Assembly (NCBI GenBank): GCA_028820845.1
Contig: JAPPII010000101.1
Location: forward strand, 27,591 to 91,590
Direction: 5' to 3'
From: Candidatus Poribacteria bacterium
GTDB lineage: Bacteria > Poribacteria > WGA-4E > WGA-3G
Length of the DNA stretch: 64,000 nt
The translations under genes and the position numbers were made by a program. This document shows, one piece after another, positions 9,921-30,469 of this stretch. Position 1 is the first letter of the stretch. The number at the start of each line of letters is the position of its first letter. The notes under the pieces were generated by a model. That model did no database searches. It was not told the origin of the DNA and worked only from the letters and a program-made list of their open reading frames with translations.

Positions 9921-10832
9921 ATGAACCGCCAACACACCAACAGCGAAGACACCATCACCACCCTATTCGTCGAAATTCTCATGCCGATGAGTGCCACATG
10001 GCGCATTTACGAACAAACGACAAGACCACTCCTCGAAAATCAAAGAAAGCCCGATGTAATCATCCGCACAGTCGAACGGTATCCGCTGGCAGTCGAAGTA
10101 AAAATCGACCACAAGCGCGGTCCCAATGAAACCGGCGAAAAACAGGCGTGTGAATATTACTTGGGCAAAACCCTCCGTGCCACAGGTGAAACGGTTGCCA
10201 GTGCAATAGCGATCCGCCTCCCCTACAGATTCCGTATAATGCCCCGTGACGAAATCCGCGAGAATTTGGAGAGGTCAAATGACTTCGCGTACGCCCTCCT
10301 CAACATTGACGAACCCGATAGATTTCCCAAAAAAGGGTGGCTTGAAGGCAGTATCGCCGACATCGCAACTGCTATCCGCATCGGTGCAACCCCTATCACC
10401 AAAATTGAGAGAGCCGCCGAGGTGCTGGAGAACGGCATTCACCGTGCCGCCGTCATCGTCAATGGGGCAATCCAACACCGACCCCATATCGGTAAAAGGA
10501 TAGGCGAACTCCTCGTCCAAGAACCAGGTGACCAGACAACGCAAATGGCGATGCTCATTATTAGCAACGCCCTGGTGTTCCAAAGTTCTCTTGCACGTAA
10601 ACCGGATTTAGAGGCTGTCCCATCGCTCAGCGAACTCACTGCTGATTACGGGCAGCTCGATTCAGAAAATTCTCAAGGCGAACTACACCCGTCCCGAATC
10701 CTCCGCACTCCTCTGTGCCTTGGCGTTACCCGAACTCAAGAGCGATCCAAAGAAACTAAAAATCGCAGATTTCGCTTGCGGCACAGGTTCACTCCTCAAT
10801 GGTGTCTATCAACGCCTCCTGATGCTCTATGA
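9921..10832 (+). CDS. N-terminal nuclease part of a frameshifted restriction-modification protein
   Basis: Start is the ATG at 9921, preceded by AAAGGA. Residues 40-60 contain PDVIIRTVERY and LAVEVKID, a PD...ExK pair like that of the PD-(D/E)XK nuclease domain at the front of single-chain endonuclease-methylases. The reading frame stays protein-like to about 10650, where SLSELTADYGQL is reached. From there the sensible sequence continues in the +1 frame (IQKILKANYTRPESS, then the methylase). The tail of this frame, up to 10832, is therefore frameshifted nonsense. The single shift near 10655-10662 separates nuclease and methylase; it may be a true mutation or an assembly error. Confidence 0.65.
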   Translation: MNRQHTNSEDTITTLFVEILMPMSATWRIYEQTTRPLLENQRKPDVIIRTVERYPLAVEVKIDHKRGPNETGEKQACEYYLGKTLRATGETVASAIAIRLPYRFRIMPRDEIRENLERSNDFAYALLNIDEPDRFPKKGWLEGSIADIATAIRIGATPITKIERAAEVLENGIHRAAVIVNGAIQHRPHIGKRIGELLVQEPGDQTTQMAMLIISNALVFQSSLARKPDLEAVPSLSELTADYGQLDSENSQGELHPSRILRTPLCLGVTRTQERSKETKNRRFRLRHRFTPQWCLSTPPDAL

Positions 10833-12144
10833 ACAAACAGGTGGGAACGGAGAAAGTATTCATCAGTACATGATGGAGAAGAATCTCGTCGGATGCGACA
10901 TCCTACCTAACGCTGCACATCTGACTGCCTCCATCATTGCAAGTACCTATCCTGATGTTCGTATCGGCGGCACGCGTATCCACACAATGCCCTACGGCAC
11001 CCCGCGCGCTGACGGACTTTACGCCATCGGTGCCTTGAACCTTCTCAGTGATCCAGCAGGGACACTTCCCTTGAATCTCGGCACGACAGAAACCGCTACC
11101 GGACAAGGCACGCAAACAACTGACCTCAGTGACGCATTCAAACATGGCGAATTCGACATCGTTATTCAGAATCCACCCTACACGCGGAGCGGGGCAGATA
11201 GCAACTCTAATCTGCCTAAAAGTATTTTCGCCGACAAAAAGGAAGCATCCGCAATGCAAGCATCGCGTCGGGCGCAAGGCCGGCGGCTCGGAGGTAACAA
11301 TCCTGGGGCGGGTCCCGATTTTGTTGATCTTGCTGATAGAATGCTAAAACGCAATGGTACAATGGCGTTTGTGCTACCGGTTACAGCGATCACTGGAAGT
11401 AGTTGGCAGAAGGTGCGAAAATTGTGGACAGAGGAATATCATCATGTTCTTGTTATTACGATTGCCGATGCCCGCACTGAGAATTGCGCATTCTCAGCGG
11501 ATACTAATATGGCAGAGTGTCTCGTCATCGCAACGAAGGGAAAATCAAAGAACATTGGACGTGCGACTTTTGTATGTCTTAAACGGGGTCCCAGTGGTGA
11601 ATTAGAAGCTCTGGAAATCGGGAAAACGATTCGTGGAATTGGGGATATTCGCTGTCTTGAAGATGGTATTAATAGAGGCAATCCTATTCGTATTGGTGGT
11701 GATGTTCTCGGATTCGCCATTTCGGCACCCTTGACATCCGGGGCAGTAGGATGGCCTATATCCCGCGTTAGAGACATAACAGCAATTCAATCGGCATATC
11801 AACTCGCGAATGGACAGTTGCAATTCCCTCGACAGAAAGCTGCTATCGACTTACCAATCTGTTTTCTCTCAGATGTTGCTCAATTTGGCGCAGACCATCG
11901 GGATATCCATGATCCCGGGAAACGAGGAGCGTTTGATGTTGAAGACGGATGTCCTGATACGGCTGAATATCCGTGCTTGTGGCATCTCAATAGCAAGGCA
12001 CAGCGATCAATGGTTGTATTGCCCGATGCTCATGCGTTCATTCGTCCGCATGCGGAAGTGAAGGCACGGGAGATACTTGAACGTAATAGTCGAGTACATT
12101 TCAACATAGATTTGCGATTCAATTGTTCCCACTATTCGCAATAA
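10720..12144 (+). CDS. Adenine-N6 DNA methylase part, frameshifted and with damaged 3' end
   Basis: This is the continuation of the gene at 9921 after the frameshift; the frame is protein-like from about 10660, upstream of the TTG at 10720. Motif I is FACGTGSLL and motif IV is NPPY, the marks of gamma-class adenine methylases that transfer a methyl group from S-adenosylmethionine. The region after residue 250 would hold the target recognition domain. It ends abruptly at 12144 in an unfamiliar tail, and another open frame carries on to 12268, suggesting a second frameshift. The combined gene would be about 740-790 codons, shorter than usual for type IIG enzymes. Activity as a complete restriction system is unlikely. 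Confidence 0.7.
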   Translation: MALPELKSDPKKLKIADFACGTGSLLNGVYQRLLMLYEQTGGNGESIHQYMMEKNLVGCDILPNAAHLTASIIASTYPDVRIGGTRIHTMPYGTPRADGLYAIGALNLLSDPAGTLPLNLGTTETATGQGTQTTDLSDAFKHGEFDIVIQNPPYTRSGADSNSNLPKSIFADKKEASAMQASRRAQGRRLGGNNPGAGPDFVDLADRMLKRNGTMAFVLPVTAITGSSWQKVRKLWTEEYHHVLVITIADARTENCAFSADTNMAECLVIATKGKSKNIGRATFVCLKRGPSGELEALEIGKTIRGIGDIRCLEDGINRGNPIRIGGDVLGFAISAPLTSGAVGWPISRVRDITAIQSAYQLANGQLQFPRQKAAIDLPICFLSDVAQFGADHRDIHDPGKRGAFDVEDGCPDTAEYPCLWHLNSKAQRSMVVLPDAHAFIRPHAEVKAREILERNSRVHFNIDLRFNCSHYSQ

Positions 12145-21737: not shown

Positions 21738-21956
21738 ATGACTAAAATGGCAAACTATGAACTTGATGAAATTCACAAAATCCGCCGAGAGATATCAGCT
21801 CGGTTCGACCACGACGTGGACAAACTGATTGCACATTATCACGCATTAGAGGAAGAATACCGGAAGTCAGGCAAATACAAATTCGTGGATCCACCGTCAG
21901 AGAAACCGAAGGAAAGAGGAAGATATAATGAAGCTTTCAAAAAAGCGACTTTCTGA
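21738..21956 (+). CDS. Small antitoxin-like protein, copy 1
   Basis: A 72-residue protein with MANYELDEIHKIRREIS near its start, followed by FDHDVDKLIAHYHALEEEY and a Pro-rich end. A paralogue with the same opening lies at 22697, directly after a PIN toxin. Such short helical proteins with an EIxxIRxEI pattern are common partners of PIN-type toxins, so I infer an antitoxin role. GGAG sits three bases before the ATG at 21738; a second ATG three codons later is a possible start. The 3' end overlaps the BrnA-like gene by 29 bases. Confidence 0.6.
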   Translation: MTKMANYELDEIHKIRREISARFDHDVDKLIAHYHALEEEYRKSGKYKFVDPPSEKPKERGRYNEAFKKATF

Positions 21957-22161
21957 AATTGAGAACCTTCCTGAGGACACAATTGATACATCAGACATCC
22001 CCGAACTTGATGATGACTTCTGGAAAAATGCCCAGCGGATTGTCCCCGAAAATTATCTTGCGATTGAACACGAAATCTTGGAATGGTTCAAGGAACAGGA
22101 ACAAGATTACCACGATCAGATAAATACGGTGCTTCGGGCGTATATGGAGGCACATAGATAA
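21928..22161 (+). CDS. BrnA/DUF4415-like antitoxin
   Basis: A 77-residue protein ending in LEWFKEQEQDYHDQINTVLR followed by AYMEAHR, the ribbon-helix-helix-like C-terminus of BrnA (DUF4415) antitoxins, where the pattern LxWFxxxGxxYQxxxNxxLRxYxxxxx is usual. The middle DIPELDDDFWKNAQRIVP is also BrnA-like. BrnA normally neutralises a BrnT ribonuclease encoded just upstream. No BrnT is present here; a small antitoxin-like gene overlaps its start instead. AGAGGAAGA precedes the ATG. A decayed second copy lies at 26553. It may be an orphan antitoxin or a regulator of the local promoter. Confidence 0.7.
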   Translation: MKLSKKRLSEIENLPEDTIDTSDIPELDDDFWKNAQRIVPENYLAIEHEILEWFKEQEQDYHDQINTVLRAYMEAHR

Positions 22162-22215
22162 ATCAACGCATGGTTTGCTTTACCGGGACACGTAAATCTT
22201 TGGAGGTTACAATTA

Positions 22216-22704
22216 TTGCATAACGAAACACAAAATCGTGTCTATATTGAAACGACAATTCCGAGTTTTTACTACACGTTGCGCACAGATATTGAATCAC
22301 TTGCTAGGCAAAGTTGGACCCGGAAATGGTGGTCGGAATACGCGGATCAATTCACCCTTGTCTCAAGTGCTGCTGTTATTGAGGAGCTCCGCAAAGGGAT
22401 AGGTGAAAAAACGCAAGAGCGTATCGACTTGGTAGAGAATCTTGAAATACTGACAGTTACTACTGAGGTTAATCAAGTCGCAGAAATCTACATAGACCGG
22501 TTAATAATGCCTCGAGGTCTGTTCGGGGACGCACATCATGTAGCACTTGCTTCGTGTTACAATGTAGATGTGCTTTTAACATGGAATTGTAAACATATCG
22601 CGAATCTTGATAAAACTTATCGTATCCGGCAGGTAAATCGTGAACTTGGTTTACCAACGCCGGAATTGGCGACACCTCTAAACTATTTTGGAGTTGATGA
22701 CTAA
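22216..22704 (+). CDS. PIN-domain toxin (VapC-like)
   Basis: A 162-residue PIN-like ribonuclease. The first acidic site is in VYIETTIPSFYY (Glu rather than Asp), the next Glu in IEELRKG, the third acidic group in GLFGDAHHVALAS, and LLTWNCKHIAN is the typical last strand and turn. Such toxins cleave tRNA, rRNA or mRNA when freed from an antitoxin. The start is TTG at 22216 with GGAGG nine bases upstream. The next gene starts inside its stop region (ATGACTAA), as expected for a coupled toxin-antitoxin pair in toxin-first order. Confidence 0.75.
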   Translation: MHNETQNRVYIETTIPSFYYTLRTDIESLARQSWTRKWWSEYADQFTLVSSAAVIEELRKGIGEKTQERIDLVENLEILTVTTEVNQVAEIYIDRLIMPRGLFGDAHHVALASCYNVDVLLTWNCKHIANLDKTYRIRQVNRELGLPTPELATPLNYFGVDD

Positions 22705-22909
22705 AATGGCTAACTATGAACTTGACGAAATTCACAGAATTCGAAGGGAAATCTCTAAAAAATTCAATCACGATGCCAGAAAACTGGGCGAATACTACCG
22801 CGAGTTAGATAAAAAATACCGGAAGTCTGGAAAGTATAAATTCGTAGATCCGCCACCAGAAAAGCCTAAAAAAGTAGCGAAATCGACGAATGAAGAGGCT
22901 GCAGATTGA
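22697..22909 (+). CDS. Small antitoxin-like protein, copy 2 (PIN partner)
   Basis: A 70-residue paralogue of the protein at 21738, with the shared opening MANYELDEIHRIRREIS and the shared YRKSGKYKFVDPP. It starts at the ATG at 22697, overlapping the PIN toxin by eight bases; GGAG is three bases upstream. Coupling to the toxin makes it the likely antitoxin. The C-terminus (KKVAKSTNEEAAD) differs from copy 1. The two copies suggest duplication of a module within this cluster. Confidence 0.65.
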   Translation: MTKMANYELDEIHRIRREISKKFNHDARKLGEYYRELDKKYRKSGKYKFVDPPPEKPKKVAKSTNEEAAD

Positions 22910-22970
22910 CTAAAATATTTCTGTACACGCTGAGATTTTGTCAGGAATTAGGTCGGAGAAACCCCAACCC

Positions 22971-22996
22971 GGTAGGCACGGTTTCCTAACCGTGCC
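22971..22996. repeat. Hairpin repeat of the GGTRAGG family
   Basis: Arms GGCACGGTT and AACCGTGCC around TCCT. Paired changes relative to the other copies keep the stem. It lies just upstream of the helicase-RuvC-TPR gene. Confidence 0.8.
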
Positions 22997-23050
22997 AATC
23001 ACAATGTCCAAGTAATTCTAACGTTTCTTATAAACCCAAACGAACCTAAG

Positions 23051-26000
23051 ATGTCGAAACTTTTAAAAGGCTTGAATTCTTCGCAACGAGAAGCTGTTAC
23101 ACACGGAACAGGCCCTCTTCTAATTATTGCAGGGCCTGGTTCAGGTAAGACGCGAACGGTTGTTCATTCTATTGCTTATGCTATAGAAAACAGAGTACAA
23201 CCAGACCAGATTTTGGCATTTAGTTTTACTGTAAAAGCCAGCGAGGAATTGCGAGATCGGGTGAAAGAAATTGTAGGGGAAAAGAAAGGAAAACTCGTTA
23301 ATATATCTACATTCCACAGTTTCTGTCGAAACGTCTTGAAGGAGGATATTGATAGACTCGGTAGAGGTTACACACCGAATTTTAAAGCCTTAGAGGAGAA
23401 AGATCAGAGAAAAATTGTTGAAAATTTAACGCGTATTAACAAACGACAGGTACGCGCCGAGGTTGACTATATACAATTTCATAGATTTCCTAAAGCTGAA
23501 AATGTTCTTAATTTTATTAAAAAGTGTAAAGCGAGAGAAATTTTTCCATCAGATGCTGGAAATCAAGTCCCCGATCCTGATAATTCGGAAGCCTATATAA
23601 AAATTTATGAAAGTTATGAGCAGCTTCTTAGGACTAACGGCTGGATTGATTACGAGAGTCAGCAAGTTTTTACTGATAAACTTCTTAGAGAGGTTCCGGA
23701 TATTAGGGGAAAATGGCAGAATAAGTTCGGACTAATTTTTGTTGACGAATACCAAGACACAGATCCAACGCAGTATCGGATCATCAAAAACCTTGCTCAG
23801 AAGCATTTGAATTTGCGTGTTGTCGGTGACGATGACCAAGGAATTTACGGGTGGCGAGGTGCTGACATCCAGAATATATTAAACTTTGAGAGAGACTACC
23901 CTAATGCTAAGGTAATTTCGCTTGAACAAAATTATCGTTCAACGCAAAGGATAATTGAAACCTCTCGAGCTTTGGCGGAATTTAATCCAGAGCGTCGAGA
24001 GAAAGAACTATTCACACGGAATTCTGAGGGAGAGAAGGTAAAATACCTCCATTGTATAACCGATGAAGAAGAAGCTTCTACTATTGCCACTTTCATCCAT
24101 GAGACTGTTGATGGAGGTAGTCAATTACCAAGCGATTTTGCTGTGTTATACCGCACCAATAAACAAGCAGACCCTTTTAAAAAGGCTTTCAATGACTTAG
24201 GAATTCGGTATCATGTACTCGATGATTCCATCAGTACGGACACAATCGGTGTGTCTCTGATGACGATCCATAAATCTAAGGGCTTAGAATTTCCGAATGT
24301 ATTTGTTACGGGAATATGTCAGGATTTGTTACCACATTATCACAATCGTGACGAAAAGAACTGGGATGAGGAACTGCGGTTACTTTATGTAGCAATGACT
24401 CGCGCGAAAAATTGGTTATGCCTCTCTTCCTATGAGAGAGACGATCAGTATCCACGCGGAAGCTCTCCATTTTTAGAGTATATTCCTTCTCATCTTCTTG
24501 AATCCGTAGATACGCTTGAAAACATTCCTATCCTACCGATTCCAGAAGACTCCGAAGGAGCAACCGAATATCTTGAACCATTGCCTGAGAAACTACTTGG
24601 GAATGGTATGACTGTCCTGGGGGTAGACCCAGGTAATATCGGTGCTAAAACGACAAATGTAGGATGGTCTATTACGCAAAAGTCGTTTGATGGTTATACC
24701 GTTGTTGACTATGGCACCCTAAACCCACTCGGACAAGCGAATGACAAATCAGAAAAAATTAAACGGAAAATTGACGCACTGATAACCTTACGCTCTCCTG
24801 ATGCAATTGCAGTTGAACAGATTGAAGTCGGAAAGGACGCAACAAAAGAAGATTGGTTCTTTTATGTCGCTGGATGTGTCGCAACCATAAGAAGTATTGC
24901 CCATCAGCACGGAGTTGAATGTCAACTCTATACGCCCCAGCAAGTCAAGTATATTGCTACGAGTAAGAGAAACGCATCTAAACAGGAAGTCCAAAAAGGA
25001 GTCATGCGAATATGTAACCTCCAACAAATGCCAGAACCTCACCATTCCGCTGATGCAATCGCGGCAAGCCTGTGTTACCTCAGAAACTACCTGAACTCTT
25101 CACGCTTTGAAGGCAATAAGCGAAAACAGGAATCCTATGAAGCAGGCTGCGATTACTTGAATAATGGGCAATATAACGCAGCGGCTTCCAAGTTCCAAGA
25201 AGCGATAAACATAGATCCTGTTTACACCGACGCACATTGTGGACTGGGACGGGTGTACATTGGACAGGGGGACTTAGAAGCAGCGGAGAATACGGCTAAA
25301 AAATCCTTAACGCTTGCGGAAAATAATCATACAAATTCGCAGAATCTTTTGAAGTCTATAAAGTGTTACCACTCTGGTTGCAATTCCTTGAACAATAGCG
25401 GATGGAACATAGCAATTGGCAAATTTCAGGAATCTATAAACTTAGAACCCATTTTTACCGAAGCACATTGTGGACTTAGTAAGGCATACCTGGAGGTAGG
25501 TAAGCTGGAAGCCGCTAAAGGTGCAGCCGAAGAAGCTTTAAGACTCAGGGACGAATATCCAGAGGCCTTGACGCTTTTGAAGCTTGTAAAGATGAGATAT
25601 TACTACAACGGCAAGAAGTGCTTTAACCGTGAAAACTACGATCAAGCGATTTTAGAATTTCAAAGGGCCATAGAAATTGACTCAAAGTTTATAGGGGCGC
25701 ATCTTTTCCTTGGCAAGACTTACTTTCAACTCGGAAATCTTGAAGAAGCAGAAAAAGAAACCGAAAAGGCTCTGGCGGTTAACCGAGACTATGAACATGC
25801 TAAGGAACTGTTAGAAAAAATAAAGCAAAAGCACAAAGAGCAAGGTGATGACTATCGGAAGCAGAAAGCGTACGACAAAGCACTGAAATCCTACCAGCAC
25901 GCCATACGCATTGACGATAAATATAAGGAAGCCTATCACAATCTTGGCATCCTTTATCGGGTTATGAAAGAATACGACAAAGCGATACAGGCTTATGAGA

Positions 26001-26545
26001 AAGCGATAGAGATTGATAAATGGAGTCACGTGACTTATAGGGATCTTAGTTTCGTTTACCGTAAAATAGGTGATCCTGATAAGGCAGTAGACTTACTAAA
26101 ACGTGCAATTGCAATTAAGCCGGATTACCAAAGAGCATATCATAATCTCGCTGATACTTACTTTCAAATGAAAAACCTACAAGATGCAAGCAAAAACGTG
26201 TTAAAGGCTTTAGAGTTGCCTGGCAACCATTCGGATACTCACAAACTTTCAAAGAAAATACGAGATGCTTACTTAGATCAGGGACAGGATAGCTTTAACC
26301 GGGATGATATCGATGCAGCAGAAATTTCTGCTAAAGCGGCTTTAGAACTTGATCATAACAATCAAATTGCTCACAAACTTTTGGATGATATAAAGGAAAA
26401 GTACTATAAAGATGCTTTGACTTATCTTAAACAGGGCAAATGGAAATCTGTAGAGAAGTTCGCGAAAAAAGCATTGAGAATCGAATTGAGCGGGAGAAGG
26501 GTGAAACAATTCGCCCGTCGAGTCGCAAAACGTATCGGGATATAA
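23051..26545 (+). CDS. UvrD-type helicase / RuvC-type resolvase / TPR fusion protein
   Basis: A 1164-residue protein with three parts. Residues 1-470 are an SF1 (UvrD/Rep) DNA helicase with all main motifs: Q motif LNSSQREAV, Walker A GPGSGKT (28-34), Walker B VDEYQD (231-236), VVGDDDQGIYGWRGA, EQNYRST, MTIHKSKGLEF and LLYVAMTRAK. Residues about 517-685 are a RuvC-like nuclease: GVDPG (Asp526), IAVEQI (Glu589) and HHSADAIA (His665 and Asp668), matching the four metal-binding positions of RuvC. From about 694 to the end is an array of TPR repeats. A helicase, a junction nuclease and a protein-binding array in one chain is unusual and suggests a self-contained DNA-processing or defence factor. 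It sits between toxin-antitoxin genes. Its ribosome-binding site is weak. Confidence 0.85.
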   Translation: MSKLLKGLNSSQREAVTHGTGPLLIIAGPGSGKTRTVVHSIAYAIENRVQPDQILAFSFTVKASEELRDRVKEIVGEKKGKLVNISTFHSFCRNVLKEDIDRLGRGYTPNFKALEEKDQRKIVENLTRINKRQVRAEVDYIQFHRFPKAENVLNFIKKCKAREIFPSDAGNQVPDPDNSEAYIKIYESYEQLLRTNGWIDYESQQVFTDKLLREVPDIRGKWQNKFGLIFVDEYQDTDPTQYRIIKNLAQKHLNLRVVGDDDQGIYGWRGADIQNILNFERDYPNAKVISLEQNYRSTQRIIETSRALAEFNPERREKELFTRNSEGEKVKYLHCITDEEEASTIATFIHETVDGGSQLPSDFAVLYRTNKQADPFKKAFNDLGIRYHVLDDSISTDTIGVSLMTIHKSKGLEFPNVFVTGICQDLLPHYHNRDEKNWDEELRLLYVAMTRAKNWLCLSSYERDDQYPRGSSPFLEYIPSHLLESVDTLENIPILPIPEDSEGATEYLEPLPEKLLGNGMTVLGVDPGNIGAKTTNVGWSITQKSFDGYTVVDYGTLNPLGQANDKSEKIKRKIDALITLRSPDAIAVEQIEVGKDATKEDWFFYVAGCVATIRSIAHQHGVECQLYTPQQVKYIATSKRNASKQEVQKGVMRICNLQQMPEPHHSADAIAASLCYLRNYLNSSRFEGNKRKQESYEAGCDYLNNGQYNAAASKFQEAINIDPVYTDAHCGLGRVYIGQGDLEAAENTAKKSLTLAENNHTNSQNLLKSIKCYHSGCNSLNNSGWNIAIGKFQESINLEPIFTEAHCGLSKAYLEVGKLEAAKGAAEEALRLRDEYPEALTLLKLVKMRYYYNGKKCFNRENYDQAILEFQRAIEIDSKFIGAHLFLGKTYFQLGNLEEAEKETEKALAVNRDYEHAKELLEKIKQKHKEQGDDYRKQKAYDKALKSYQHAIRIDDKYKEAYHNLGILYRVMKEYDKAIQAYEKAIEIDKWSHVTYRDLSFVYRKIGDPDKAVDLLKRAIAIKPDYQRAYHNLADTYFQMKNLQDASKNVLKALELPGNHSDTHKLSKKIRDAYLDQGQDSFNRDDIDAAEISAKAALELDHNNQIAHKLLDDIKEKYYKDALTYLKQGKWKSVEKFAKKALRIELSGRRVKQFARRVAKRIGI

Positions 26546-26552
26546 GGATACA

Positions 26553-26785
26553 ATGCGGCTTTCAAAAACACGGCTTTCTGAAATTGAGAATCTTCCTGAG
26601 GACACAATTGATACATCAGACATCCCCTAACTTGATGATGACTTTTGGAAAAATGCCCAGCGGATTGTCCCTGAAAATTATCTTCAGATTGAACGTGAGG
26701 CTTGGAATGGTTCAAGGGACAGGGACAAGATTACCACGCACGAATAAATACGGTGCTTCGAGCGTATATGGAATCACATAGATGA
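26553..26785 (+). pseudogene. Decayed second copy of the BrnA-like antitoxin
   Basis: The DNA closely matches the gene at 21928-22161 over its whole length. A GAA to TAA change makes a stop after 25 codons (in TSDIP), and one base is missing near 26697, shifting the rest. The end of the copy now holds the ATG (26782) of the flavoenzyme gene. The copy is separated from the intact one by the PIN pair and the large helicase gene, so a module was duplicated and then one copy lost. Confidence 0.85.
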
Positions 26786-28044
26786 ACACACACTCCAATT
26801 ACGACCTCATCGTTATCGGCGGGGGACCCGCTGGCAGCACCGTTGCAACGCTTGTTGCTGAACACGGACACCGCGCCCTACTCCTTGAACGCGAAGCCGA
26901 ACCGAAATTCAAGATCGGGGAGTCGCTAATTCCCGCGACCTACTGGACTTTCAAACGACTCGGTATGCTCGAAAAACTACGGACAAGCCACTTTCCGCAG
27001 AAATACAGCGTCCAATTCTATTCACGTACCGGCAAAGCCTCCAGTCCGTTCTACTTCTTTCAAACCAACCCGCATGAGAGTGCAGTCACGTGGCAGGTGT
27101 TGCGGAGCGAGTTTGACGAGATGCTCTTAGACAACGCGAAGGAAAAAGGCGTAGAAGTGCAACGGGGAACCCGCGTACGAGAGGTGCTTTTCGACGGAGA
27201 CTCAGCCACCGGTGTTGTCGTCCAAGATGCAAATGGCACCTGTGAAACCCTGGGTGCAACCGTCATCGCCGACTCTACCGGACAGCGGTCGCTGATTGGA
27301 CGGCAGCTAAACCTGAATACAGTCGAACCCAATCTCAAAATGGCATCTCTCTTCACACACTATGAGGGTGGGCATAGAGACGAAGGCATCGACGAAGGCG
27401 CGACGCTCATCCTACACACGGAGGAGAAAGACTCGTGGTTCTGGTCGATCCCGTTGCCTTATAATCGCACAAGCATCGGTGTTGTCGGTGAACTCGATTA
27501 CCTCCTCCAGAGCCGAAGAAATGCCAACGGTAGACTTGATACGCAGCAGATTTTCACAGAAGAACTTGAGAAATGTCCTGCATTGAAGAGCCGACTTGAA
27601 GGGGCAAAGCAGCTTTTTCCGATCCAAACCACTAAAGATTTTTCCTACCGTGCCAGCCGTATCGCAGGCAATAATTGGGTGTTGGTAGGCGATGCGTTTG
27701 GGTTCTTAGATCCCGTCTACTCCACGGGGCTGTTTCTGGCACTCAAGTCCGGTGAGATGGCAGCGGATGCTATCATTGAAGCCTTTGAGAAAGATGATTT
27801 TTCCGAGGCACAACTCAGGAGTTTTGGACCGACGTTTGTAGATGGGATGGAGGCATTTCGGAAACTCGTCTACGCTTTTTACACAAAAGAATTTAGTTTT
27901 GCGCGGTTCCTGTCCCAATACCCAGAGCATCAGGGAGGCATCGTCGATATTTTGAGTGGCGATGTGTTTAGAAAAGATGTAACCCACATCTTTCCTGCGA
28001 TGGCAGAGATGTGTCCATTGCCCCCTGAAGTGCCGCTCGGTTAA
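26782..28044 (+). CDS. FAD-dependent halogenase-like oxidoreductase
   Basis: A 420-residue flavoprotein. The FAD-binding motif is VIGGGPAGST (12-21), followed by LLEREAEPKFKIGESLIPAT, where GES..P is the halogenase/geranylgeranyl reductase pattern. SWFWSIP holds W219-F-W-S-I-P224, a match to the WxWxIP motif of flavin-dependent halogenases. VGDAFGFLDPVYSTG is the second FAD contact. The protein could chlorinate or brominate a phenol or pyrrole, or be a relative that kept the motif for monooxygenase chemistry. No flavin reductase or biosynthetic gene is adjacent. The start is inside the decayed BrnA copy, so its upstream region was taken over by that duplication. Confidence 0.8.
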   Translation: MNTHSNYDLIVIGGGPAGSTVATLVAEHGHRALLLEREAEPKFKIGESLIPATYWTFKRLGMLEKLRTSHFPQKYSVQFYSRTGKASSPFYFFQTNPHESAVTWQVLRSEFDEMLLDNAKEKGVEVQRGTRVREVLFDGDSATGVVVQDANGTCETLGATVIADSTGQRSLIGRQLNLNTVEPNLKMASLFTHYEGGHRDEGIDEGATLILHTEEKDSWFWSIPLPYNRTSIGVVGELDYLLQSRRNANGRLDTQQIFTEELEKCPALKSRLEGAKQLFPIQTTKDFSYRASRIAGNNWVLVGDAFGFLDPVYSTGLFLALKSGEMAADAIIEAFEKDDFSEAQLRSFGPTFVDGMEAFRKLVYAFYTKEFSFARFLSQYPEHQGGIVDILSGDVFRKDVTHIFPAMAEMCPLPPEVPLG

Positions 28045-29330: not shown

Positions 29331-29365
29331 AAATTGTAGGTAATACTTAATAAGGAGAAATGGAA

Positions 29366-30469
29366 ATGGAATTAACTTTTGAAAAAGGTAACCTCTTGTA
29401 TTCCCTACAGGTGCTACAAGGCGTGGCAAGTGGACACAGCACCTTACCGATTCTCTCGAATGTCCTTATCCAAGCCGCAGACGAAAAAATTGCGTGTGTC
29501 GCTACAGATTTAGAGATTGGTATCAAAATCAGAGTGGAAGGTGGAATCCAAGAAGAAGGCGCAATCACTGTCTCAGCGAGAAAATTGGCAGATGTCGTCA
29601 AAGAATTACCGGAAGATAAAACAATACACTTGGCAACTACAGCAAATAACCGGGTTGAAATTACTTGTGGCGATGGCGTTTACACAATTATTGGACTCCC
29701 TGACGAAGAATTTCCACAATTACCTTCGATTGATGGAGAATCCTTGACAATTGAAGGCGATACCCTCCGGGCACTGCTCCGCAAAACCGAATTCGCTGCA
29801 GCCACAGAGGAAGTTCGTTATTTCCTCAACGGCCTCTATTTTAATTTCCTCGCAGACAGAACCGAAGTGGTTGCTACCGATTCGAGATGGCTCGCGCTCG
29901 CACACTGTGACCCACTCAAGACCCCTGGGAATAATGATGGGTTTATCCTACCCCTGAAAGCCGTTAAAGAGATCGCGCGAACCTTTGCGGATGCTTCTGA
30001 GGTGACGCTCTCGCTTTTTGAAAATCAGATTCTTTTTGCTGATGAGAACGCTACCTTAACGACACGGCTTGTTGAGGGCGATTATCCGAAGTATGAGAAA
30101 CTCATTCCAAACGAAACAACCGGTAGAGCAGTTATCTCCAAAGACGATATTTTACCGGCTGTTCGACGGGTCGCGTTGCTGTCGAATCCGAAGAACTACT
30201 CAATCACTTTGGATATAGAGACAGAGCAGATTACGATTTATGCGAAGACCCCGGAATTAGGTGAGGCACGTGAGACGATTTCTGTGCAATCTTGCACCGC
30301 AACTGCCCGGTTCGCGATTGATGCACGTCTGCTCATAGACATTTTAGCGCACATCGAAACGGAGTCGCTCGCTATAGAGTTCACGGGTGAATTCGCACCT
30401 GTGGTCATTAGACCCGTCGGAGACGAAGGACATATCTGTCTCGTGATGCCGATGCGTCTGGAATCCTAA
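29366..30469 (+). CDS. dnaN: DNA polymerase III sliding clamp, beta subunit
   Basis: DnaN forms the ring that holds the replicative polymerase on DNA. This 367-residue protein has the three-domain clamp layout, with LPILSNVLI, the first-domain TDLEIGIK, EFPQLPS, and the C-terminal VMPMRLES, which matches the usual MPMRL end. AAGGAG at 29352-29357 is eight bases before the ATG at 29366 but only two before the ATG at 29360, so I choose 29366. The protein then opens MELTFEKGNLLYSLQ, as in other clamps. It has its own promoter and no dnaA or recF beside it, unlike the classical origin arrangement. Confidence 0.95.
   Translation: MELTFEKGNLLYSLQVLQGVASGHSTLPILSNVLIQAADEKIACVATDLEIGIKIRVEGGIQEEGAITVSARKLADVVKELPEDKTIHLATTANNRVEITCGDGVYTIIGLPDEEFPQLPSIDGESLTIEGDTLRALLRKTEFAAATEEVRYFLNGLYFNFLADRTEVVATDSRWLALAHCDPLKTPGNNDGFILPLKAVKEIARTFADASEVTLSLFENQILFADENATLTTRLVEGDYPKYEKLIPNETTGRAVISKDDILPAVRRVALLSNPKNYSITLDIETEQITIYAKTPELGEARETISVQSCTATARFAIDARLLIDILAHIETESLAIEFTGEFAPVVIRPVGDEGHICLVMPMRLES

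Follow-up and report, generated by a model that had tools for sequence, protein, structure and literature searches.

Which task might be performed by a single bacterial protein that joins a UvrD-type helicase, a RuvC-fold nuclease and a TPR array? This question is raised by a gene lying in a 64-kb stretch of DNA (called the window in the following and meaning the whole stretch analysed) from a metagenome-assembled genome (MAG) of Candidatus Poribacteria. The product was named HRT for its order helicase-RuvC-TPR, and the copy in this stretch is referred to as the window allele. Based on the evolutionary behaviour described below, HRT is interpreted as a one-gene conflict effector, most likely directed against phages or mobile DNA, with a probability of about 50%.

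Domain architecture and reality of the gene

HRT is encoded by one unbroken open reading frame (ORF) on the forward strand (23051–26545), running from ATG to TAA and coding for 1164 amino acids. The N-terminus (MSKLLKGLNSSQREAV) begins straight at the helicase Q-motif, and no signal peptide is evident. The gene can be divided as follows:

23051..26545, + strand: whole gene of the helicase-RuvC-TPR fusion protein HRT (ORF calls, Pfam, 14 orthologues)
23051..24475, + strand: SF1A (UvrD/PcrA-type) helicase, residues 1–475, motifs Q–VI intact (domain searches, motif reading)
24218..24247, + strand: short link, residues 390–399, where PcrA has its 2B subdomain of ~176 residues (phmmer against 1pjr; gap also in orthologues)
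24476..24598, + strand: variable proline-rich linker, residues 476–516 (orthologue alignment)
24599..25120, + strand: RuvC-fold nuclease domain, residues 517–690 (Pfam, PDB profile search, AlphaFold2, Foldseek)
24626..24628, + strand: catalytic Asp526 (invariant in 13/13)
24815..24817, + strand: catalytic Glu589 (invariant in 13/13)
24824..24826, + strand: Glu592 at the RuvC Phe69 position (invariant Glu among HRT orthologues)
25043..25045, + strand: catalytic His665 (invariant in 13/13)
25052..25054, + strand: catalytic Asp668 (invariant in 13/13)
25121..26542, + strand: TPR array, residues 691–1164, in relatives lengthened or extended by an FGE-sulfatase-like domain (Pfam, alignment)

A preliminary description, made from the sequence of the window, had proposed that all three domains reside in one real chain and that no described family combines them. 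Both points were borne out. Pfam identified UvrD-helicase, UvrD_C, RuvC and TPR, all above the curated cut-offs, and orthologues were found in other genomes. In NCBIfam, models of PcrA/Rep/UvrD and RuvC matched in part, all below the equivalog cut-off. Pfam, NCBIfam and PADLOC contain no family with the three-domain combination, and full-text literature searches found no paper describing it. The linker region (residues 476–520) is poorly conserved, with a mean pairwise identity of 47% between aligned orthologues.

A phylum scan found HRT encoded in 14 of 85 Poribacteria genomes. All carriers belong to one family (14/59 genomes); the genus of the window contributes 12 (of 38 genomes) and another genus two (of 18), with none elsewhere in the phylum. 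Full-length orthologues in other MAGs are 57–67% identical to the window allele, and two of them (57% and 64%) sit on named GenBank contigs of Ca. Poribacteria. Orthologues with complete sequence keep a single frame throughout; the copies of G052 and G056 are fragments ended by contig edges, and that of G055 lies on two contigs and is interrupted by an in-frame TAA. The suspicion that two adjacent genes were fused by an assembly error, also raised in the preliminary description, is excluded by these independent full-length, one-frame orthologues.

Beyond this family, profile searches with the fused RuvC domain in three overlapping sets (387, 397 and 386 genomes, about 1,100 different genomes) matched nothing but ordinary stand-alone RuvCs. 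No HRT orthologue was found in viral, plasmid or phage collections either; these gave stand-alone RuvC-like matches with 25–31% identity only, and spread by phage or plasmid was rejected on these grounds.

A helicase lacking subdomain 2B

Pfam places UvrD-helicase at residues 8–284 (1e-78) and UvrD_C at 400–462 (1.7e-42), and the motifs Q, I, Ia and II–VI are all readable. When PcrA (1pjr) was compared by phmmer, HRT residues 3–389 and 399–487 matched (E 5e-98), whereas PcrA 381–556, the 2B subdomain, remained unmatched and is replaced by ten residues. The same gap recurs in the alignment of other HRT orthologues. As judged from these alignments, the HRT helicase is a naturally 2B-less version, which is a small correction to the earlier reading as UvrD. 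Like the SF1A helicases UvrD, PcrA and Rep (1pjr, 1uaa, 2is1), HRT has motifs I–VI and the order 1A/1B/2A; it differs from them by the absent 2B and by the fusion to RuvC and TPR.

Removing 2B from Escherichia coli Rep switches on the helicase activity of the monomer, and the subdomain has come to be regarded as a regulatory brake (PMC13238157). Rep without 2B displaces proteins from DNA poorly (PMC6158625). Together, these findings suggest that the 2B-less helicase of HRT would be a motor suited to unwinding and in need of other control.

Within the helicase, variation is greatest in subdomain 1B (residues 111–215), with a mean identity of 43% as compared with 79% for residues 216–300. Motif III is altered in some alleles (L030, L032 and L023), which read WLGA, SFQGA or SFREA and not WRGA; motor activity is perhaps changed in these alleles.

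A RuvC-fold nuclease with an altered recognition position

The RuvC profile of Pfam is covered entirely by residues 522–675 (8.2e-17; score 61.9 bits, cut-off 22.2), and a PDB profile search matched this domain to solved RuvC structures (E 5e-14). An AlphaFold2 model of residues 517–690, built with 17 sequences, reached a pLDDT of 87.5; its top 12 Foldseek matches in the PDB were all RuvC (TM 0.73–0.81, E 2e-14 to 2e-11), so the fold postulated by the preliminary description is present. A model of residues 1–690, with only 3 sequences in the alignment, had a pLDDT of 36, too low to be informative. Asp526, Glu589, His665 and Asp668 are invariant across 13 of 13 aligned orthologues. K633 and K644 correspond to RuvC lysines that contact DNA and are conserved in the orthologue alignment.

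Three residues past the catalytic Glu589, HRT has an invariant Glu592, whereas the stand-alone RuvCs aligned have Phe (6/6). This position is that of RuvC Phe69, a residue with a role at the junction that may not be universal among RuvCs. No paper on RuvC Phe69 turned up in a literature search, and the point rests on alignments. In addition, every HRT-bearing genome contains a separate ordinary ruvC. The RuvC domain of HRT is 19–32% identical to stand-alone RuvCs, and the fused copies form a separate long branch in a quick tree that bears on a possible origin of the fused domain from the ruvC of Poribacteria; two housekeeping sequences in that tree had been improperly extracted.

The domain thus shares with RuvC resolvase the fold (TM about 0.8), the Asp/Glu/His/Asp metal site and two aligned lysines, and differs from it by Glu592, by the large fusion context and by being an extra copy beside the genomic ruvC. 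The earlier assignment as a resolvase stands for fold and metal site and is weakened for function, and a canonical role in resolving Holliday junctions appears doubtful. Because of Glu592 at the Phe69 position and the own ruvC in each genome, the term RuvC-fold nuclease is preferred.

An exchangeable C-terminal module

After residue ~690, the orthologues diverge in the type of module. The window allele, in which TPR_2 has nine significant stretches in Pfam, ends with TPRs only, as do G049, G035, G064 and G042. Six relatives (G074, G050, G078, G070, G057 and G056) add an FGE-sulfatase (C-type-lectin-like) domain to the TPRs, and G051 has a basic tail after them. The FGE-sulfatase domain was found with Pfam E-values of 3e-22 to 3e-67 in four of the six, those scanned individually. 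These C-type-lectin-like ends vary in length (L026, L028, L029, L031, L032 and L033), and the best FGE stretch of G074, G057 and G050 is limited to roughly the first half of the profile.

FGE-sulfatase (FGS)/C-type lectin (CLec) and superstructure-forming repeat modules have been proposed as sensors of prokaryotic conflict systems, in which the effector domains sit N-terminal to FGS (PMC7159879, PMC10907252). It is mainly this parallel, an analogy and not a test, that suggests reading HRT as a sensor joined to an effector. Variation of the FGE end driven by diversity-generating retroelements (DGRs) was considered and is unsupported: of three FGE-bearing genomes, RVT_1 was missing from G056 and G074 and present in G078 (a 513-aa open frame, type of reverse transcriptase undetermined); template repeats were not sought.

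Presence, absence and exchange of alleles at one site

All flanked HRT loci share one order, that is HemN/CoA-ligase or ABC-hisA, small PIN/antitoxin genes, HRT, FAD oxidoreductase and TAXI receptor. Another 38 genomes of the family have the corresponding site without HRT. The sister species G064 and G072 have the same sequence upstream and differ in the presence of HRT, and G075 retains a relic made up of a piece of the N-terminus and, in a different frame, remains of the TPRs. For comparisons of synonymous divergence (dS) and identity, the following gene served as neighbour control:

26782..28044, + strand: FAD-dependent oxidoreductase, constant right-hand neighbour of the insertion site (locus comparison)

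Between G056 and G078, the core helicase has a dS of 0.14 against 0.99 for the neighbour gene. For G052 and G056, the values are 0.07 and 1.12; both core-helicase values refer only to the part present in the fragments. The reverse is seen in G000 and G056, which are listed under a single species and have a neighbour dS of 0.24 but divergent HRT alleles (RuvC 58% identical), and in G070 and G078, which have clearly different HRTs beside a neighbour gene that is 98% identical. HRT identity does not track that of the neighbour for core helicase, RuvC or TPR start; the N-terminal 215 residues track it moderately (Spearman about 0.53). These comparisons show that HRT alleles have been transferred between Poribacteria species. 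G049 and G074, otherwise different alleles, are 92% identical in region 111–215, and such high local identity points to mosaicism.

Both enzymes are, as estimated from the finite dN/dS values, under purifying selection (core helicase 0–0.24, RuvC 0.11–0.43, first TPRs 0.23–0.48). The claim that both carry intact motifs agrees with this, with the readable helicase motifs and with the invariant catalytic tetrad.

Relation to known conflict systems

The UvrD-type helicase region scores well with the PADLOC models of Gabija GajB and the DRT-associated helicase. However, HRT has neither a GajA TOPRIM nuclease nor a reverse transcriptase as a partner nearby, and the score reflects general UvrD similarity. 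The adjacent GajA (ATPase-TOPRIM) that Gabija requires is missing at the window locus. Some Cas12a2 loci carry a TPR-DUF3800 protein (RNase H fold) together with UvrD and TPR (PMC10910872). They are distantly comparable, as an RNase H-fold nuclease, a UvrD helicase and TPRs are used together as in HRT, but separate genes with a Cas12 effector are involved and the nuclease is DUF3800 and not RuvC; the likeness is one of modules. Modular NTP-dependent conflict systems (PMC7159879, PMC10907252) resemble HRT in placing N-terminal effectors before repeats and/or a varying FGE sensor. Unlike HRT, they use vWA/MoxR, STAND or EAD modules, often with DGRs, and UvrD and RuvC are unmentioned in PMC7159879. 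Membership of HRT in any named defence system is not established.

Possible function of HRT

The case for a conflict effector is built on evolution, namely presence or absence at one site, exchange of alleles and a swapped C-terminal module. In such a mechanism, the C-terminal module (TPR, in some alleles with the C-type-lectin-like FGE domain) would sense an invader product or a host partner. The 2B-less motor would then, going by the biochemistry of its relatives, unwind as a monomer from single-stranded DNA, gaps or forks, and the tethered RuvC-fold nuclease, with its intact metal site and altered recognition residue, would nick or cut the resulting branched DNA. The original idea of unwinding and cutting branched DNA under control of a partner held by the TPRs may be retained as plausible, as far as we infer. 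A more far-reaching proposal is tentative and somewhat less probable than the general reading: HRT could be a new single-protein immune system in which a constitutively competent 2B-less UvrD motor and a repurposed RuvC are released by an exchangeable C-terminal sensor, with alleles traded between Poribacteria species at one site. If the conflict model is right, a housekeeping helicase and a housekeeping resolvase would have been fused into a sensor-gated DNA weapon within one gene, and a distinctive candidate immune gene would be added for Poribacteria, a phylum known from marine sponges. HRT also offers a natural way to test whether 2B is a brake that UvrD-family helicases can lose, and what kind of enzyme a RuvC without the usual Phe is.

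Several observations weigh against a defence role. Patchy presence and horizontal exchange are expected of anti-phage genes and are seen here, but are not specific for defence; together with the swapped C-terminus, they are traits of conflict genes and equally of other genes under diversifying selection. The flanks are metabolic or housekeeping, and only small toxin-antitoxin (TA)-like genes and no recognised defence gene lie beside HRT. PADLOC recognises the helicase part alone, through the generic UvrD similarity of the GajB and DRT-helicase models. One locus is shared by all orthologues, which does not resemble a mobile defence island. In several relatives there are TPRs only and no separate sensor domain, FGE domains occur outside conflict systems too, and a DGR reverse transcriptase was absent from two of the three FGE-bearing genomes tested, the single hit in the third being a reverse transcriptase of unspecified type.

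The main rival is a dispensable accessory enzyme of DNA repair or recombination, with a helicase acting on forks and D-loops by migration or unwinding, a RuvC part cutting junctions and TPRs docking repair partners. Both enzyme families belong to recombination and repair, the RuvC fold with its tetrad and the two DNA-contact lysines are retained, and dnaN lies two genes downstream. On the other hand, each HRT genome already has a normal ruvC and UvrD/PcrA-type helicases are listed for most of them, the Phe69 position is an invariant Glu, and on/off presence with exchange of alleles would be unusual for repair genes. This explanation is thus considered rather unlikely, but less so than the other two.

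It is improbable that HRT is a selfish or passively spreading gene, maintained by homologous exchange at one site without benefit to the cell, for instance by a nuclease promoting its own gene conversion. A single gene at a fixed site with clean empty sites and recombination breakpoints at the gene edges would agree with this, as would the relic in G075 and the stop codon in the G055 copy. HRT has, however, no features of a homing endonuclease or integrase, RuvC is a junction enzyme and not a sequence-specific homing nuclease, and swapping of the C-terminal module is better explained by selection on binding than by selfish homing. Even less probable is a role in symbiosis, with HRT as a repeat protein of the "eukaryotic-like" kind that would engage proteins of the sponge host or the community through its TPR/lectin end while the enzymes are vestigial or repurposed. 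The window belongs to a lineage known from sponges, and the literature repeatedly lists TPR proteins among the eukaryotic-like proteins of sponge symbionts. Yet it is the enzyme halves that are constrained and the TPRs that are relaxed, and a cytosolic DNA enzyme starting straight at the Q-motif and lacking an evident signal peptide would be an odd host-interaction effector.

Neighbouring genes and further observations

The preliminary description placed HRT within a cluster of toxin-antitoxin genes, a type of region in which defence genes accumulate. A few small PIN- and antitoxin-like genes are indeed present (72 aa, 77 aa BrnA-like, 162 aa PIN-like and 73 aa; 21738–22909), with a copy number that varies across the family. 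They lie, however, between metabolic genes and occur also without HRT; the flanks in the window are hisA, the FAD-dependent oxidoreductase, a TAXI-type receptor and dnaN, which weakens the idea of a gathering of defence genes. Upstream of HRT, the following features were annotated:

22216..22704, + strand: 162-aa PIN-domain-like gene, overlapping the 73-aa gene (Pfam PF01850 1.3e-4, just under the cut-off)
22688..22909, + strand: 73-aa antitoxin-like gene, directly upstream of HRT in 12/12 loci with upstream sequence
22910..23050, + strand: upstream intergenic block of 141 bp (129/144 positions identical to G078)

The immediate neighbours of HRT in the window, the 73-aa gene and the FAD oxidoreductase, also flank the orthologues. 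The 73-aa gene was found at that place in 12 of 12 HRT loci and 17 of 38 empty sites (Fisher p = 0.0005, counting related genomes as independent). A TA operon was considered as an explanation and rejected, as the 73-aa gene also occurs without HRT and is therefore no dedicated partner. The 162-aa gene goes with the site and not with HRT.

Between the window and G078, the upstream block is far more alike than the HRT N-termini, which share just 54% identity. It contains a perfect palindrome, GGCACGGTTTCCTAACCGTGCC, at 22975–22996, which has three sites genome-wide, is also found upstream of HRT in G078 and is REP-like. The stretch that separates HRT from the FAD oxidoreductase (26553–26781, + strand) holds a degenerate copy, with in-frame stops, of orf77, a BrnA-like antitoxin gene whose intact copy lies at 21928–22161. 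The window has a single dnaN-like gene (29360–30469), whereas two tandem dnaN-like (sliding clamp) genes follow HRT in G064 and G055 (L023, 16381–18792; L024, 9082–11487). Further upstream, a 474-aa ORF (10720–12144, + strand) matches an Eco57I-type methylase (Pfam 1.8e-8) and is possibly a remnant of a restriction-modification system.
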